Source: Bacteroidota bacterium (lineage in GTDB: Bacteria > Bacteroidota > Ignavibacteria > UBA10030 > UBA8401). From it: a stretch of 64,000 nt of DNA. The position numbers and the translations under genes are program-made. Positions within the stretch are counted from its first letter, which is position 1. Each line of letters starts with the position of its first letter. The notes below the pieces were generated by a model. That model was not told the DNA's origin. It saw nothing but the letters and a program-made list of their open reading frames with translations, and ran no database searches. Positions 33,345-41,630 of the stretch are shown here, one piece after another. The DNA is taken from the NCBI GenBank assembly GCA_035506275.1, contig DATJPT010000005.1:1-64000 (forward strand), given 5' to 3'.

Positions 33345-35234
33345 CTATCGAACGCCTAATTTATAGAGCTTTCCTTCGCCGGGCTGAAGAGTGTCGGTAA
33401 AACTGCCGTTGGGGGAAACGATCCAAGAATTCTTTGAATTCACGTCCGAGACTGTCCACGTTGCTCCGTTCGTGTTAAGTATCGTTTTTATCGCTCTGAT
33501 TTCGGTCGGCAGCGTCCTCCTGTTGACAAGATAAAGGTAGTTCGCCCCGGTTCCGTCCTTGAGATGGCCCGTCTCGACATAGAAGATCTCCCCCTCAATG
33601 TTCGTTGCGACCGCAGTAACAAGACCCGCCCATGCTCCATATACCTGCCCTCGCGAATTCCAGCTTTTTGTCCCCTGCCATGCCAGGGATAGCAGTGCCG
33701 GACCGATCGATGCGAGGGTATGGTTGAGAACTTTTATCGTCTCCCATTTGGGTTGACCATACGGATCGGTGTACTCCGGCGTCGCACTCGAATTGTCCGC
33801 GAGCAATCCCGTCCTATAGATCTTCTTCGCGGGATCGCTGTTGTTTGTATACATAAAATAGATAATTCCCTTTGCGCCAAAAGAGACTGCAAGATTCGTC
33901 ATGGCACGCACTTCATACGCAGAAGGTTCCCTCGTATATAACTCGGGCGGATCGACGGTAGGGTTGGACCATTCATGCGCCTGTACTGTGAGCCAGAACG
34001 GCTTGGAGAATTTCTGCGCGACGGCTGCTAAATCGGACAACCTGCCGGCGAACGATTCGAAGCACCGCTGGACCTGAGATGTGTACCCGTTTTCGTTCGG
34101 GGTCGCCGTCCCGTACACGATCGGGTAAGTATCGCACACCAGGACCGGCAGTCCTGTTTCTTTCAGAAATTTCTTTGTCGAATCGTCGGCTCGTCCGGTG
34201 AATGCCCGGTAAGAAAACGAACTCTTGTTCGTCAATCCTGCCACGAGATTCCTGTAATATTGTACGGGGAGAAAGTTTTCGGGATATGGTTCGTCCCACA
34301 CAACGAAGCTTTTCGCCGCATTTTTATAGTTATTGACAAAACTTTTCACCCTCGCATCGAATTCCCCGTTATACAATCTGTGGGCGACCGTATCATCGAT
34401 CGCAACGTAATCAAGGTCGACAGTGTATTTGTAGGGCGAGGTATCGAACCATTCTATTTGCACGTCATTGCGCGGAGGCTCAACTCTTTCATTGCGTCCG
34501 CTATTTTTCTGAAAATAGGAAGCGACGAGTATTTCTTTCCAGCGATGGTTCGTAAATTCGCTCGCATAGACTATGCGGCCGACCGAGGAATTCTCGAGGC
34601 CCACTCGGAGAACGGGGACGCTGTCAAAGCTGGCTGCAAACGGCAGCCGCATTTTGATTTTCAGAAAATAGTATTGGTTGTCGTACTGGAGGTTCGGCAA
34701 TCTCAAGTGATTTGCCACAATGCCATACGGAGGATTTCCCGGCGTCAAGCGAAGGAAATTTGCTGCCTGCTTGCCGGAGTCGGGGACAACATTCCAGTGA
34801 GTCGAAGCTTCCTGATCATAAAGGATCGTTCCGCCGCTGACGTTCGTAAAATCGTTGAGTTTATTTGCAACCGGGTTTTCAATTTGGTACACCCACCGCT
34901 CGGGAAAATATACGCTGCCAGAGGCGTCATAACGGTCGAAACCGTTGGTTAAAAATACCTCGATGCCAACAGCATTGGCTTCTGCAATGTCTTCTCTGAT
35001 CTGGGCGACGGTTGCGTTGCCGTAATTGGAATACCTCTCGAAATACTTCAAACCGGCAAAATTGATCCCCAGAGATTTTGCTGTATCCCAATACGCTCGA
35101 GTATGTACGACCTTGCTTGAATCCCAAAAATCGGCAAACGAGCTGACATGCTCCGCCCCTATGATAAATTTTTCCTGTTGGGCCCGCACTGAAGCCGCGA
35201 GGATGACGGCAAGAAAGAGAATAGCATGTTTCAT
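33345..35234 (-). CDS. Secreted glycoside-hydrolase-like protein of unknown family
   Basis: The 629-residue protein has a signal peptide (MKHAILFLAVILAASVRAQ). An alpha/beta (TIM-barrel-like) layout is suggested by DTAKSLGINFAGLKYFERYS, GIEVFLTNGFDRYD, then an inserted beta-sandwich-like section (about 130-290). The barrel resumes with SFVVWDEPYPENFLPVQYYR, PVLVCDTYPIV, KPFWLTVQAHEW and FGAKGIIYFMYTNNS. The motif WDEP and the later HEW/YFM strands are typical of GH barrels acting on glycans, but I cannot assign a CAZy family. It carries no T9SS tail, so it probably remains periplasmic or is exported otherwise. It diverges from the sugar symporter gene across about 104 bases. The upstream frame to 35333 is disregarded in favour of the signal peptide. 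Confidence 0.7.
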   Translation of the reverse strand: MKHAILFLAVILAASVRAQQEKFIIGAEHVSSFADFWDSSKVVHTRAYWDTAKSLGINFAGLKYFERYSNYGNATVAQIREDIAEANAVGIEVFLTNGFDRYDASGSVYFPERWVYQIENPVANKLNDFTNVSGGTILYDQEASTHWNVVPDSGKQAANFLRLTPGNPPYGIVANHLRLPNLQYDNQYYFLKIKMRLPFAASFDSVPVLRVGLENSSVGRIVYASEFTNHRWKEILVASYFQKNSGRNERVEPPRNDVQIEWFDTSPYKYTVDLDYVAIDDTVAHRLYNGEFDARVKSFVNNYKNAAKSFVVWDEPYPENFLPVQYYRNLVAGLTNKSSFSYRAFTGRADDSTKKFLKETGLPVLVCDTYPIVYGTATPNENGYTSQVQRCFESFAGRLSDLAAVAQKFSKPFWLTVQAHEWSNPTVDPPELYTREPSAYEVRAMTNLAVSFGAKGIIYFMYTNNSDPAKKIYRTGLLADNSSATPEYTDPYGQPKWETIKVLNHTLASIGPALLSLAWQGTKSWNSRGQVYGAWAGLVTAVATNIEGEIFYVETGHLKDGTGANYLYLVNRRTLPTEIRAIKTILNTNGATWTVSDVNSKNSWIVSPNGSFTDTLQPGEGKLYKLGVR

Positions 35235-35338
35235 GGGAATACTTTTTTTACCGGTCGAGCAATCTTCACTTGTTATTCCGCGGTCGAAGATGTACCTTGT
35301 GCCGTTCCCGAATCTATAAATTATCGACGACATTGTCT

Positions 35339-37123
35339 ATGCAGCCCTTGAAATTGTATGAGAAGATCGGCTACGGCTTCGGCGATGCAGCCTCTTCAAT
35401 GTTCTGGAAGCTTTTCGGAATGTACCTCCTCTTTTTTTACACCGACATCTTCGGCATCACCGCCGCAGCGGTCGGAACGATGCTCTTTATCACCCGGCTC
35501 GGCAACGCCGCATTCGACCCGTTTGTCGGCATCCTCGGCGACCGGACCAACACCCGGTGGGGAAAATTCAGGCCGTATATGCTCTGGATGGCCCTGCCGG
35601 TCGGCCTCATCGCGGTCTTGACCTTTACAACTCCCGACATCGGAGAAAACGGAAAACTCGTCTATGCGTACGTCACCTTCTCATTGATGATGATCCTCTA
35701 TTCGATGATCAACGTTCCGTATGCCTCGCTGATGGGAGTGATGACCGACGACGGCAAGCAGAGGACTACTCTCGCGACGTACCGTTTCATCTTCGCGTTC
35801 GGGGGAAGTTTTCTCGTGCTCGGCCTGTTCCAGCCCCTGTTCGACGGATTCGGGACGAGAACATTCTATGAATTTTCCTCGCCGAAGATCGTTGAAACGG
35901 CCGACACTCCCGCAAGGACCACGAACAAGCTCATCGTGTGGGAAGGAACTTCTGCAGGCTCGGCTGCCGGGCAGCGCGTCGATTCCCTTCTTTTCATCAC
36001 TGCGAAAATAAATACGAGCGCAAATGATGCGTTCAGCCTCGGCGTGGTCAATGCAAGAACAAATCAATTTTACGGCTGCAGTTTTCCTGAAGGGAAGGAC
36101 ACTCTTGGATTGCTCCGCACCGGAGCGACGAGCGACGTCAAGCTGAGGCTGGACCGGTTTGTTCCGAGCGAAGATCTGGCAAATCTTGCCGATTTGAAGT
36201 TTGCGTGCAAAGGGCTGGGCCAGGAATCCATCACGGTCCGAAATATTGCGTTGAAAGAGATCAACTACCGCGCCGGCACGGAGCGCGCCGTTGTCGTGAT
36301 CTCCTCGCTCGCCGTCGTCTTCTTCATCCTCACATTCCTTCTCACAAAGGAAAAGGTGCCGCCGACCACGGTCGAGACCTCTCTGAAAAACGACCTGAAA
36401 GATCTGAGCAGGAACGGCCCGTGGTTCATTCTCGTCGGCGCCAGCATCTCCACGATCTTTCTCAACACGATCCGGGACGGAGCCACAGTCTATTACTTCA
36501 CCTACTATTTCAAGGGGATGAGCAATATCGAATTTAGTTCTTCCGTCATTCTCGCCATCAGTACCGTGTACCTGCTCGTGGGGCAGGCGGCCAACATTAT
36601 CGGCGTCGTCCTGGCAAAGCCGGTCTCCGACAGGATCGGCAAGAAGAAAACGTTCCTTATCGCGATGGTCAATGCGGCCGTGCTCAGCTTCATCTTCTTC
36701 ATGCTGGATAAATCCGCCATCGTGCTGATTGTCGTTCTTCAGTTTTTGATCAGCATCAATGCCGGCATCATTTTCCCTCTCATCTGGTCCATGTTTGCCG
36801 ATACCGCGGATTACTCCGAGTGGAAGAACGGGCGGCGCGCTACCGGTCTTGTCTTCTCCGCCGCATCCATGTCGCAAAAATTCGGGGCCTCGATCGGGAT
36901 CGCCATGGTCGGCTGGATCCTGTCGTTCTACGGCTATCAGGCGAACGTCGAGCAGACCGAGGCGACGCAGAACGGCATCCGCATGATGCTGAGCGTCTAC
37001 CCCGGCATAGGAGCGCTGCTCGCCGCAGGATTTATCTTCATCTATCCGCTCAAAGAATCCGTACTCGACAAGATCAGCGCGGAGTTGGCAACGTTCCGTT
37101 CGACGGGAGCAAAACCGTCATAA
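35339..37123 (+). CDS. GPH-family sugar:cation symporter (MFS) with large inserted periplasmic domain
   Basis: The 594-residue transporter has the glycoside-pentoside-hexuronide symporter pattern: KIGYGFGDAASSMFW at helix 1, LGNAAFDPFVGILGDRTN-type loop, and IGKKKTFLI in the second half. Twelve helices are expected. Typical members have about 450-500 residues; this one has an extra block of about 140 residues (172-315) between helices 5 and 6. On normal topology that block lies on the periplasmic side. It is hydrophilic and beta-rich (FITAKINTSANDAFSLGV through SITVRNIALKEI), resembling a carbohydrate-binding sandwich. The gene is divergent from a GH-like secreted protein and followed by a GlcG-like gene. 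The start ATG at 35339 fits a cytoplasmic N-terminus. Substrate not predictable. Confidence 0.86.
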   Translation: MQPLKLYEKIGYGFGDAASSMFWKLFGMYLLFFYTDIFGITAAAVGTMLFITRLGNAAFDPFVGILGDRTNTRWGKFRPYMLWMALPVGLIAVLTFTTPDIGENGKLVYAYVTFSLMMILYSMINVPYASLMGVMTDDGKQRTTLATYRFIFAFGGSFLVLGLFQPLFDGFGTRTFYEFSSPKIVETADTPARTTNKLIVWEGTSAGSAAGQRVDSLLFITAKINTSANDAFSLGVVNARTNQFYGCSFPEGKDTLGLLRTGATSDVKLRLDRFVPSEDLANLADLKFACKGLGQESITVRNIALKEINYRAGTERAVVVISSLAVVFFILTFLLTKEKVPPTTVETSLKNDLKDLSRNGPWFILVGASISTIFLNTIRDGATVYYFTYYFKGMSNIEFSSSVILAISTVYLLVGQAANIIGVVLAKPVSDRIGKKKTFLIAMVNAAVLSFIFFMLDKSAIVLIVVLQFLISINAGIIFPLIWSMFADTADYSEWKNGRRATGLVFSAASMSQKFGASIGIAMVGWILSFYGYQANVEQTEATQNGIRMMLSVYPGIGALLAAGFIFIYPLKESVLDKISAELATFRSTGAKPS

Positions 37124-37178: not shown

Positions 37179-37598
37179 ATGGAGAATTTTCAAAGCGCTG
37201 CACCGAAAATGATCGCTGCAATGGAACAGCATGCGAAAAAACTTGGCGTGAGAGGAGCCATTGTCATCGCAAGCATGGATAAGCATGGGGAGTCGTGGAT
37301 ATCACAGATGAAAGTGGTGGGGGCGATGGCATCCGTTCCGGAAACCCCCAAACCCGGGGAATATCCCGGTTACAATTTCATCGGCATCGCATATTCAAAG
37401 GCGGCAGAAATGGCGGATACAAAGATCAACAGCGGCAGCAAGCTGCGTCCTCCATACCAGGGAGAATTCGGCTACCAGGGAGGGATGATAAAAAAATTTG
37501 AGTCTGGCTTTATTCTCGCCGTCTTCAGCGGCGCCACAGGCGAGCAGGATTTTGAAATAGCCGGCGTTGGAATGAAAGCGTACGAAACCGGCAAATAA
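37179..37598 (+). CDS. GlcG/HbpS-like haem-binding-family protein
   Basis: This 139-residue protein matches the GlcG/HbpS fold: AAPKMIAAMEQHAKKLGVRG, then IVIASMDKHGESWI and a Gly/Ala-rich IAVFSGATGEQD-type closing segment. Family members bind haem, cobalamin or dicarboxylate-related ligands, and often accompany metabolic genes without a settled role. It has no signal peptide and lies 55 bases after the sugar symporter on the same strand, so it is probably in its transcript. It converges with the ribokinase gene, only 16 bases apart. Confidence 0.75.
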   Translation: MENFQSAAPKMIAAMEQHAKKLGVRGAIVIASMDKHGESWISQMKVVGAMASVPETPKPGEYPGYNFIGIAYSKAAEMADTKINSGSKLRPPYQGEFGYQGGMIKKFESGFILAVFSGATGEQDFEIAGVGMKAYETGK

Positions 37599-37614: not shown

Positions 37615-38541
37615 CTACGGGCTCGCTGTCCTCAGAAAATTCTCAATTTCCCCCCGCGTCGGCGCCGACGGCTGGGCGCCGAGGCGGGTCACGGAGATCG
37701 CCGCACCGGCTGTCGCAAATCTCACGGCCTCCGAAATGTCCTTGCCTTCCACTAACGCAACGGCCAGACATCCGCAATAGATATCCCCCGCACCTGTCGT
37801 GTCGAGAGCGTTTACTTTGAATGCGTCCACCCACCTCTCCCCATTCGCCGAATAAATGAACGAACCGCGCGCGCCAATCGTGATGATCACCGTTTCACAC
37901 CCTAAGCGGGCAATTTCCGTTGCCGCTTTCGACACCGAGGCGTCGTCCGCAACGGCAATTCCCGAAATATATTCCGCTTCGGATTCATTGACGACCAGGA
38001 TCTCCACTTTTTTGAGATAACTTCTGTCGAATTCGCGGGCAGGGGCAAAATTCCAGAGAACTCTTTTCTTGCGCTGATGGCAAACATCCAGAACATATTT
38101 CAGCGTCTCGGGGAGGATCTCATATTGAAGGACAATGATTTCCGCCTCTTTAATAAGATCGAGAACTTTATCGATATGCCGGGGGGTCAGCCTATAGTTG
38201 GCTCCCGGCGCAACGGAGAGATAGTTGGTCCCCAGGTCGCCGATCATCACGAGCGCCGTACCGCTTGAAATATTCTTTTCCTGAAAGACAAAATCGGTGT
38301 TGATGCCAGCTTTGTTGAACTGGTCGACCATCCTCGGCGTAATGTCGTCGTCCCCGACGCAATTGACGAAGGAGACATTGCCGCCGGCGCGGGCGGCGCC
38401 GACCGCCTGATTCGCCCCTTTGCCCCCGAACGTCTGGAAGAAGACGCCGTCCGTGATCGTCTCCCCCACTTTCGGAAGGCGGGGCATCTTCATGATGAAA
38501 TCAATATTCGAGCTGCCGATGACGGCTATTTTCTTCTTCAT
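37615..38541 (-). CDS. rbsK: Ribokinase (PfkB family)
   Basis: The 308-residue enzyme shows both PfkB signatures: GGKGANQAVGAARAGG near 40 and DTTGAGDIYCG near 250, which holds the catalytic base Asp and the anion hole. It begins IAVIGSSNIDFIMKMPRLPK as ribokinases do. It phosphorylates ribose (or a related pentose) at O5. The gene lies downstream of a GRP-type sugar transporter and in a glycan-degradation region, consistent with pentose salvage. Because PfkB kinases vary in substrate, ribose specificity is likely but not proved. Confidence 0.9.
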   Translation of the reverse strand: MKKKIAVIGSSNIDFIMKMPRLPKVGETITDGVFFQTFGGKGANQAVGAARAGGNVSFVNCVGDDDITPRMVDQFNKAGINTDFVFQEKNISSGTALVMIGDLGTNYLSVAPGANYRLTPRHIDKVLDLIKEAEIIVLQYEILPETLKYVLDVCHQRKKRVLWNFAPAREFDRSYLKKVEILVVNESEAEYISGIAVADDASVSKAATEIARLGCETVIITIGARGSFIYSANGERWVDAFKVNALDTTGAGDIYCGCLAVALVEGKDISEAVRFATAGAAISVTRLGAQPSAPTRGEIENFLRTASP

Positions 38542-38732: not shown

Positions 38733-39725
38733 TCACAGCCGGGCGATGACGATCAATCCGAGGCCGATCACGAAACAGATGAACATCGTTGCAATGTAGG
38801 AAGCAGGAGCGCCTTTGAATTCCTTGAAAACGAATACCCCCCAGGCCGCCCCGATCATCGTCGAACCCTGCCCGAGGCCGTAGGAGATCGCCGGCCCCGC
38901 TTTGTCCGAGGCGATCAGGTTGAAGAGGAATCCCGTATTCCAAATGAGCCCGCCGAGAATGCCGATCAGGTGCAGACGCACAGTGCCGTTCTTCCAATAA
39001 TCGGCGTAGGCCGATTTGTTCCCGACGACCGGTTTGACCATAAAGAACGTGTTCCACAAAAAATTGGAGAGGAAGACGCCGATGGAAAAAATGAATACCC
39101 CGGAATATGGGGTAACTCTGCCGGCATCGGGATGAACGAAATCGAGCGTCATGCTGGCGGCAACGAACCGGTAAAAGAATCCCATAATGACGCCCCCCGC
39201 TACCGAGAGGGCTAATCCCTTCGCCGGTGTCGAGCCTTTTGATTTCGAGACTTTGGCGGCCGCAAAGGCATTCACGGTCATTGCAACAACTACGAGCAGC
39301 ACGCCCCCGAACAGAAAGAGAGGATTCCCCTGCGGCTGCTTGACGTAATTGACGATCACGCCGATCACCAATGCCAATCCAACGCCGATGGGAAAGGCCA
39401 CCGACAAACCGGCGACGGCGATCGCGGCAACGATCAGCAAATTCGAAAGATTGAAAACAACGCCGCCGAGGAATGCAGAGACGACCGAGTCGGTATCGGC
39501 TTGCAAGAGGTCGGGAATGAATCCTCTGCCCCCATCACCGCTGCTGCCCATCGTGAGGCCATAGATCAGCGAGACGATGATGAGGCCGAGCGAGTAGTCC
39601 CAGTAAAAAAGCGGGAATGGCCATCGCTCCGTCGAGATCTTTGACGTGTTGGCCCATGAGCCCCAGCAGAGCATCGTGACGACGCAAAAACAGACGGCGA
39701 GAAAATAATCGTTGATGATGAACAT
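38733..39725 (-). CDS. GRP/RbsU-type sugar permease (DMT superfamily)
   Basis: The 330-residue protein has about ten membrane helices with the layout of glucose/ribose porter (GRP, RbsU) and ureide-permease-like transporters: CWGSWANTSK in helix 1, a Gly/Ala-rich LSVAFPIGVGLALVIG, and GLGQGSTMIGAAWGVFVFKE near the end. It sits 6 bases after the GH9 gene on the same strand and about 190 bases before ribokinase, so uptake of a sugar released by the upstream hydrolases is a sensible inference. The start at 39725 is a normal ATG. Rhamnose and other sugars are possible substrates. Confidence 0.82.
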   Translation of the reverse strand: MFIINDYFLAVCFCVVTMLCWGSWANTSKISTERWPFPLFYWDYSLGLIIVSLIYGLTMGSSGDGGRGFIPDLLQADTDSVVSAFLGGVVFNLSNLLIVAAIAVAGLSVAFPIGVGLALVIGVIVNYVKQPQGNPLFLFGGVLLVVVAMTVNAFAAAKVSKSKGSTPAKGLALSVAGGVIMGFFYRFVAASMTLDFVHPDAGRVTPYSGVFIFSIGVFLSNFLWNTFFMVKPVVGNKSAYADYWKNGTVRLHLIGILGGLIWNTGFLFNLIASDKAGPAISYGLGQGSTMIGAAWGVFVFKEFKGAPASYIATMFICFVIGLGLIVIARL

Positions 39726-39731
39726 GATCTT

Positions 39732-41630
39732 CTATTTGTCTGTTGAGAGATATTGTGACAGATACGTGACCGCTCCGATGGCATGGTAGAACGGCACCCC
39801 CCACACTTCCTGCGTGTTCCACTCCACCGCGTTCGAAGTCTCCATGTACGGGGTATCATCCACTCGTCCGATGAAACCGTCGAGAGTGGCATCGGGGATC
39901 CGGTAGTTCACGAATGAGGCGATGACCGGATGTCTGAATCCGACGCCGGTGAACAAGCACAATCCGGTAGTGTTATGGCCGGTCGCCCACTGCAGAAGTT
40001 TTTCGCACTCGCTGATATATTCCGGCTTGTGCCATAACTTTCCGGCGCGGGCGAGCAGATAGGCGTGATGCATCAGCACGGCGTCGGTTCCGTGTACCAT
40101 CTCCTGCGAGTTCAGCGGGTTGATGAATGTGCGGACAAAATTTCCCCCTCCTGCGTCCCGGAAGGTTACTTCATCGGCGTACAACGGCTTGACGAATATT
40201 CCGTAAGGCGTGACTCCAAACGGATTGCTCAAGGCATCCTTGAGCAGATACTTTTCGACGTAACGCTCGACCGATTCCCTGCATCTTTTGGTCATCGCGT
40301 CCGCGCCGGGCAATTGAAGTTCGCAGAGGCGAAGCAGCGCCATAGCCGGCTCAGCATTCCACACAATGCTCCGGTAGCCGTCTGTTTTATCTTTCTCATA
40401 AAAATACCCGCTCAGGTGCTGCTCTCCCGTTTCCTGACGCTGCAGCAATTGATCGGCGAGCATTTCCAGATGATGGACAGTCACGGATCTGCTTCCCGAT
40501 GCATACAGTTCGGCCGCCGCGAGGAGTTCTTCCGCAACGAAGAGCGTCCGTCCATCGTGGCCGGCCTGCTGGCTGTAGTTCCATGCACGTTCTGCGAGCT
40601 GTCTGCACACTCCCGCATCGGCCGAGTCGAGCGCTTGAGCGGCGAACTCTTGATTCCGAACAAAGAGGAACTGGCAGACCGGATTGTATGTCGTCCGGAT
40701 CTTCCGTTCGTCGCCGTTATTGATGATGTTATCGCTCTTTCCCTCGCCGGCAGCAAGACATCCGGCATGGTTTTCGCACCACCAGTCCGCGGCGTAATTT
40801 CCTCCTGTCCGCAGAGGTCCGCTACCGATATCTTCGTAAACGCGCCCCTCCGCCGTGATCATAGAATGGAAGAACTTATTTCCCCATCGTATTTCTTCCT
40901 GAGCGGCGGTTTTGTAAACCGGGTCGCCGTACTTCACAATCATGCCCAGCGCCTCGAGGTGAGAACTTGTCTGGGAGATCCACTTGCGGAAATCGCCGGC
41001 GTCGTTCCATCCTCCGGCGGCCGGAATATAGACTCCGCCCGAATCGGTGACCCCGTCGTCGAAATTCTCAAGCGGACGAATGCCCGGAATCTCCGTCCCC
41101 GACCTCTGACAGTAAAGATAATTCAGATAGCTTCGGATAAAGCGGTCGTATGGATTATGTTCGATGACGAACGGTGTCGTGAAGCCGTATTCGGTTTCGA
41201 TCTGATAGAGACCCGGCTCGCGAAAGTTTGAAAAATCCCCCTGCCAGAAGATTCCCCATCGCGTCTGAATTTTCCGCAACGTACCGCGAAATGCCGGCGT
41301 CTCGCCTTCGGACTGCCCAGGCTGAAGATAGCTCCCCTTGTCGAGGTCGAACGGCCAGCGGAACGTGGCCCCTTTCCAGCTTTTCGGATGCCACTGATCG
41401 CGTTTCAGGCGCGAGCCGAGCCGGTCGATGAAGAAGGGAATTTCATCGGGAAGTTTTGATTCATGAAGCGATGGGAGCAACGTGACCGTCTTGGGACTGT
41501 TCCCGCTGAATCCGACTTGAGACGTCACGAGCGTTGCTTTGTCGACATACACCATTCCTGCCTCCTGCGCAGCGGCGAACGTGATCAGTGTGAGAAGGGA
41601 GACGAAAAGAAAATGCTGTCTCGTGCTCAT
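39732..41630 (-). CDS. Glycoside hydrolase family 9 (endoglucanase-like)
   Basis: This 632-residue enzyme has a signal peptide (about 1-21) and an N-terminal Ig-like/CelD_N domain (about 25-150) starting TLVTSQVGFSGNSPK. The (alpha/alpha)6 GH9 barrel follows. The hallmark GGWNDAGDFRKW near 210 gives the two catalytic-base Asp residues, and a putative acid Glu lies near the C-terminus in YMETSNAVEWN. It has no T9SS tail. GH9 enzymes cleave beta-1,4-glucans, mixed-linkage glucan or xyloglucan. It is followed 6 bases later by a sugar transporter, which suggests that it processes imported or periplasmic oligosaccharides. Confidence 0.9.
   Translation of the reverse strand: MSTRQHFLFVSLLTLITFAAAQEAGMVYVDKATLVTSQVGFSGNSPKTVTLLPSLHESKLPDEIPFFIDRLGSRLKRDQWHPKSWKGATFRWPFDLDKGSYLQPGQSEGETPAFRGTLRKIQTRWGIFWQGDFSNFREPGLYQIETEYGFTTPFVIEHNPYDRFIRSYLNYLYCQRSGTEIPGIRPLENFDDGVTDSGGVYIPAAGGWNDAGDFRKWISQTSSHLEALGMIVKYGDPVYKTAAQEEIRWGNKFFHSMITAEGRVYEDIGSGPLRTGGNYAADWWCENHAGCLAAGEGKSDNIINNGDERKIRTTYNPVCQFLFVRNQEFAAQALDSADAGVCRQLAERAWNYSQQAGHDGRTLFVAEELLAAAELYASGSRSVTVHHLEMLADQLLQRQETGEQHLSGYFYEKDKTDGYRSIVWNAEPAMALLRLCELQLPGADAMTKRCRESVERYVEKYLLKDALSNPFGVTPYGIFVKPLYADEVTFRDAGGGNFVRTFINPLNSQEMVHGTDAVLMHHAYLLARAGKLWHKPEYISECEKLLQWATGHNTTGLCLFTGVGFRHPVIASFVNYRIPDATLDGFIGRVDDTPYMETSNAVEWNTQEVWGVPFYHAIGAVTYLSQYLSTDK

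Follow-up and report, generated by a model that had tools for sequence, protein, structure and literature searches.

The window, a 64,000-nucleotide stretch of contig DATJPT010000005.1, encodes a GPH-family sugar:cation symporter that carries an insert of about 137 residues in its periplasmic loop between transmembrane helices 5 and 6 (TM5 and TM6). This insert is very probably a real β-sandwich of CBM30 stock. Folded domains within the cores of MFS transporters are rarely documented, and the window symporter adds a bacterial sugar transporter to them, one whose insert can be traced to a donor stock, the CBM-like modules of secreted enzymes, and was gained once. The features are listed in Table 1.

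Table 1. Positions of the symporter, its inserted domain and the downstream neighbour in the window.
Feature	Positions	Strand	Basis
Insert-bearing sugar:cation symporter of the GPH family (PF13347/TIGR00792, MelB-like), 594 aa	35339..37123	+	Family matches, MelB alignment
TM1–TM5, residues 1–172	35339..35854	+	PF13347 positions 1–163, MelB alignment, hydropathy
Inserted periplasmic β-sandwich domain (predicted), residues 173–309, CBM30/ExoP-like	35855..36265	+	Profile comparison, AlphaFold2
Insert core aligning with GH16-linked modules, about residues 229–270	36023..36148	+	hhalign
Best conserved insert element, F249-x-x-G252-K-D-T-L-G-L-x-R260-x-G262	36083..36124	+	Named residues invariant in 8/8 orthologues
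TM6 and C-terminal half, residues 310–594	36266..37120	+	PF13347 positions 167–426
139-aa protein encoded immediately after the symporter; weak match to HbpS-like proteins (E 0.06)	37179..37598	+	Same pair in L063 and L064

Symporter core and position of the insert

The symporter scores 307.5 bits against PF13347 (MFS_2; cut-off 27) and 352 bits against TIGR00792, the NCBIfam GPH model (cut-off 231), so that its initial assignment to the GPH type is confirmed by both curated models. The PF13347 match falls into two stretches, covering profile positions 1–163 and 167–426 and separated by 408 bp within one open frame, and the TIGR00792 match is split in the same way. The closest relative in the PDB is MelB (4m64, E 1e-30), with the alignment running to residue 170 and resuming at residue 353. 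Since the PF13347 and MelB alignments break here, the extra block is placed at about residues 173–309; it falls inside 35852–36284, the interval in which the initial annotation had noticed additional residues between helices 5 and 6. The start codon is the ATG at 35339, as supported by the orthologues, which begin with MQPLKL.

Hydropathy, the distribution of Lys and Arg residues and the alignment of both halves with MelB agree on a 12-helix core with cytoplasmic ends. Helices at about residues 143–172 and 310–343 flank the insert, and nothing membrane-like is found between them (maximum hydropathy 0.76). The loops rich in Lys and Arg (2–3, 6–7 and 8–9) lie on the membrane side opposite the insert. 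Residues 173–309 are therefore assigned to the periplasm, which matches the expectation from MelB and the side originally predicted. Within the same order, further GPH symporters (L015, L031, L032 and L061) have some 20–40 extra residues in the periplasmic TM7–TM8 loop.

The whole 12-helix core is common to MelB and the window symporter, and the difference between them is the 137-residue β domain in loop 5–6 of the latter. By analogy with MelB, the core should act by alternating access. In the MelB alignment, Asp19 and Asp124 of the sugar site correspond to S20 and N125, respectively; of the cation-site residues, Asp55 aligns with N56 and Asp59 is kept as D60. Given these replacements, the window symporter may carry a sugar other than that of MelB, perhaps with altered coupling. 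At residue 56 (35504–35506), the counterpart of Asp55, 6 of the 8 orthologues have Asp, and the window copy and L065 have Asn, which might change the coupling.

When the insert was modelled in isolation by AlphaFold2 with six alignment rows, it folded into nine strands with a pLDDT of 75 and a pTM of 0.70. The full-length symporter model, also built from six rows, is poor (pLDDT 46), and the strand pattern recurs in it between the two helices. The block had been described as β-rich, which agrees with both models, and the prediction returned a β domain rather than disorder or an extra helix pair. Foldseek comparison with the PDB and with viral structures gave weak generic jelly rolls only, none better than E 0.007. 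These matches, which include CBM6, CBM35 and CBM4 types as well as TNF and coat proteins at TM values of about 0.3–0.45, were not taken as proof of kinship.

Kinship with CBM30-like modules

The window insert has no direct sequence match in Pfam (E ≤ 10), NCBIfam or the PDB and does not reach the cut-off of CBM30 (PF21582); no relative of it was found in viral contigs, and six inserts searched against Pfam (E ≤ 10) gave two weak matches, both unrelated. A profile of the eight known inserts, searched against 295 Bacteroidia genomes, yielded three further matches (L083–L085, E 9e-5 to 1.5e-3 per genome), each of which is a module that immediately follows the GH16 domain of a large secreted protein. 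In the reverse direction, a profile of these three GH16-linked modules retrieved the symporter insert of G604 from 247 genomes (E 5.7e-4). With hhalign, the insert profile matched the GH16-linked modules at 95.8% (E 7.6e-9) and a broader module set at 94.1% (E 1.3e-7), against maxima of 1.9% and 6.0% for column-shuffled inserts (200 against each module set, 400 in total) and of 0.2% for reversed inserts. The Pfam CBM30 cut-off of 27 bits is passed by the L083 module (33.5), a GH17-linked module (32.0) and a module from the genus of the window (28.9). The Bacteroidia GH16 enzymes L083, L084, L085 and L089 have a C-terminal CBM30-like module in common, which Pfam recognises in L083 and not in L084.

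The firm alignment between insert and modules spans about 55–60 central residues, with loose ends, and over this length the profiles indicate that the insert shares descent with the CBM30-like stock. The modules concerned, of the CBM30 (PF21582) and ExoP-like galactose-binding (PF18559) types on GH16 and GH17 enzymes, have the β-sandwich and its central strands in common with the insert, together with the motif F-x-x-G-x-x-x-x-G-L-x-R-x-G. They hang on enzymes, whereas the window domain sits inside a transporter and lacks a direct Pfam match. Their W-F/Y-G strand has no reliable counterpart in the insert in the profile alignment. Within the best conserved element of the insert, the K-D-T of the loop GKDTLGL-x-R-x-G is transporter-specific, being absent from the CBM-like relatives.

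The sole Trp of the window insert, W201, is invariant in all eight inserts. Two Trp residues of the relatives can be aligned reliably. The one in T/S-W-M/I-N-F is kept in 5 of the 8 inserts, while the window copy and the two orthologues nearest to it have Gly; the other, in D-G-S-W, is present in 2 of the 8 (L071 and L072), with Thr in its place in the window copy. With both positions replaced, the window copy shows no evident aromatic sugar platform of the typical kind, and, judged from sequence alone, a classical one is unlikely in it; a smaller polar site and an interface for another protein are conceivable alternatives. The initial description of the block as a carbohydrate-binding-like sandwich thus holds for its predicted fold and, since profile searches from either side connect its core with GH16-linked modules of which some pass the CBM30 cut-off, for its descent; the sugar-type aromatic patch that was expected with it is not seen.

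Orthologues, single gain and selection

Full-length matches including the insert occur in 4 of 294 genomes of the class (G000, G282, G046 and G254). When the insert alignment was searched against about 85,000 species genomes, five loci were obtained, three in Ignavibacteriae fen MAGs (the loci of G282, G046 and G254) and two in Bacteroidetes MAGs. Two additional insert-bearers, G925 and G757, came from searching the order to which one of these Bacteroidetes MAGs belongs. In a phylum-wide sample of 395 genomes, the sole insert-bearer was the window's own. The architecture of symporter plus insert is rare. Two weak profile matches, L073 and L074, were discarded; their frames contain stops. The survey of GPH homologues suggested at the outset thereby arrived at eight orthologues with a homologous insert, the window's included, from Ignavibacteriota and Bacteroidota MAGs, and 27 other full-length symporters with the site uninterrupted.

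In a maximum-likelihood tree of these 35 cores, from which the insert columns had been taken out, a single branch separates the eight insert-bearers from all other symporters, with a support of 100/100 and in 100% of the bootstrap trees. As the bearers form one clade, a single change on the core tree accounts for them, and the insert was gained once. The nearest relatives of the clade are seven insert-free symporters with cores 48–54% identical. Inside the clade, sequences from Bacteroidota and Ignavibacteriota interleave, which suggests that the insert symporter was transferred between phyla.

Relative to the window, the other orthologues are 39–65% identical in the insert and 64–82% identical in the two core halves. 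The dN/dS values, which are rough with dS near saturation (Nei-Gojobori), are 0.09–0.11 for the insert and 0.05–0.08 for the core. Even as a rough value, a ratio of about 0.1 is incompatible with unconstrained drift, and the insert is, on this codon-level evidence, under purifying selection. Most insert-bearing genomes are draft MAGs, a circumstance that might invite the explanation of an assembly or frameshift artefact or of decaying inserted DNA. Such an explanation has a negligible chance of being correct, given the open frame and this dN/dS, and an artefact is ruled out by the homologous insert in eight independent genomes.

Possible role at the transporter mouth and cargo

We propose that a CBM30/ExoP-like β-sandwich module, otherwise carried by secreted GH16/GH17 enzymes, entered the TM5–TM6 loop once, in the ancestor of the clade, and then became a fixed and closely fused part of an inner-membrane MelB-type symporter. 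The domain would sit beside the substrate mouth and aid by contacting glycan, holding periplasmic disaccharides or short oligosaccharides (ancestrally mannobiose or mannosyl-glucose) near the entrance, while the 12-helix core would carry out transport and coupling in the manner of MelB. Our preferred reading, held tentatively and at somewhat less than even confidence, is a CBM-derived accessory domain in contact with glycan at the transporter mouth. A bolder reading, which we regard as rather doubtful, is that the captured CBM traps substrate at the periplasmic entrance and so gives this secondary transporter a binding-protein-like function in a family otherwise lacking one. GPH symporters such as MelB operate without a separate binding protein, and the earlier idea of a domain standing in place of one was therefore misframed. 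Against glycan contact stand the two lost Trp residues, the limited length of firm homology, the weak Foldseek matches, the comparable β-sandwich insert of PepT2, which has no effect on KM (PMC4597091), and the lack of a GH130 gene beside the window gene.

Folded domains inserted in an MFS core were described as first shown in 2015, in PepT1 and PepT2 (PMC4597091). Like the window symporter, they are MFS symporters with a folded β-sandwich placed between helices, on the outer face (PMC4597091). Unlike it, PepT1 and PepT2 are mammalian peptide transporters of the POT family with two Ig-like domains in another loop, which are not known to be related in sequence to the window insert. PepT2 keeps its KM when the extracellular domain is deleted; trypsin is bound by the PepT domains, which were proposed to gather it (PMC4597091). 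A literature search, in which subscription journals were thinly covered, found no CBM inserted in, or fused to, a transporter.

In the manner proposed for the PepT domains and trypsin, the insert might be a docking platform for a periplasmic protein, with sugars released next to the importer and with CBM ancestry as no more than its source; candidate partners are a glycoside hydrolase, the HbpS-like neighbour and an outer-membrane uptake complex, through its periplasmic side. The replaced Trp residues and the invariant loop with its K-D-T would suit such a role, and the unchanged KM of the truncated PepT2, together with trypsin binding, leads us to weigh docking not far behind glycan contact. 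Against it, the eight loci have differing neighbours (GH130, GalT, HbpS-like protein, oxidoreductases) and no partner gene in common, and we regard docking as possible but on the unlikely side. Less probable again is a structural or regulatory role, in which the insert, as a rigid lid without a ligand, would brace TM5 and TM6 at their ends and adjust the equilibrium between outward-open and inward-open states. In the poor full-length model the strands begin at the helix ends (172/173 and 308/310) without a linker, and conservation runs on across the junctions (LFD-x-FGT, EI-x-Y), both in favour of a lid; against it, insert-free relatives with cores about 50% identical manage without the domain. 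The single gain and these close insert-free relatives offer a natural pair for comparing a symporter with and without an accessory periplasmic domain.

The gene context gives an indication of the cargo. In Bacteroidota β-mannan loci, a symporter imports manno- and manno-gluco-disaccharides (PMC9860051). The insert-free sister symporters adjoin GH130 in 4 of the 4 loci read, as identified by Pfam for L079 and by a matching N-terminal sequence pattern for L080, L081 and L082; GH26 and a 2-epimerase are also present at L079, and L081 includes a GH2 that has mannosidase domains (β-mannosidase-type). The sister clade, although without the insert, has the context of the symporters beside GH130 in β-mannan loci (GH26, 2-epimerase, GH130, GH2; Muricauda PUL, PMC9860051). 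The same GH130 immediately follows the symporter gene in the insert-bearers L066 and L067. In five other insert-bearing genomes, the window's included, a GH130 that is 66–68% identical to that of L066/L067 lies elsewhere, with an epimerase in 4 of them and GH26 in 2; two of the epimerases are only 26–27% identical to that of L079. Since GH130 lies next to the symporter in the sister clade and in two insert-bearers, the ancestral cargo was probably a β-manno-disaccharide. The insert-bearers L075 and L076 have GalT divergently upstream.

The window symporter, in contrast to those of the β-mannan loci, is surrounded by GH9, an esterase, GH28 and a GH27-type α-galactosidase, and the GH130/epimerase cluster of its genome is found elsewhere. 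This separate cluster (L125 5007–9589, G000:C13) contains an SSF-like symporter, a GH130 of mannoside-phosphorylase type and a 2-epimerase. A second GH130 of the genome lies beside an insert-free GPH paralogue (C13:27941–30507). The gene order in two orthologous loci hints at a tie between the symporter and its HbpS-like neighbour. Divergent to the symporter, 33345–35333 (−) encodes a probably secreted protein of 662 aa, unmatched in Pfam, NCBIfam and the PDB, which perhaps represents an undescribed glycan-active family. Its β-rich segment resembles the insert by eye and was rejected as kin of it, as the likeness is backed by no family. Further along, 38733–39725 (−) encodes a transporter matching Ureide_permease and, weakly, RhaT, which adjoins a PfkB kinase (37615–38541) and a divergent GH9 (39732–41630).
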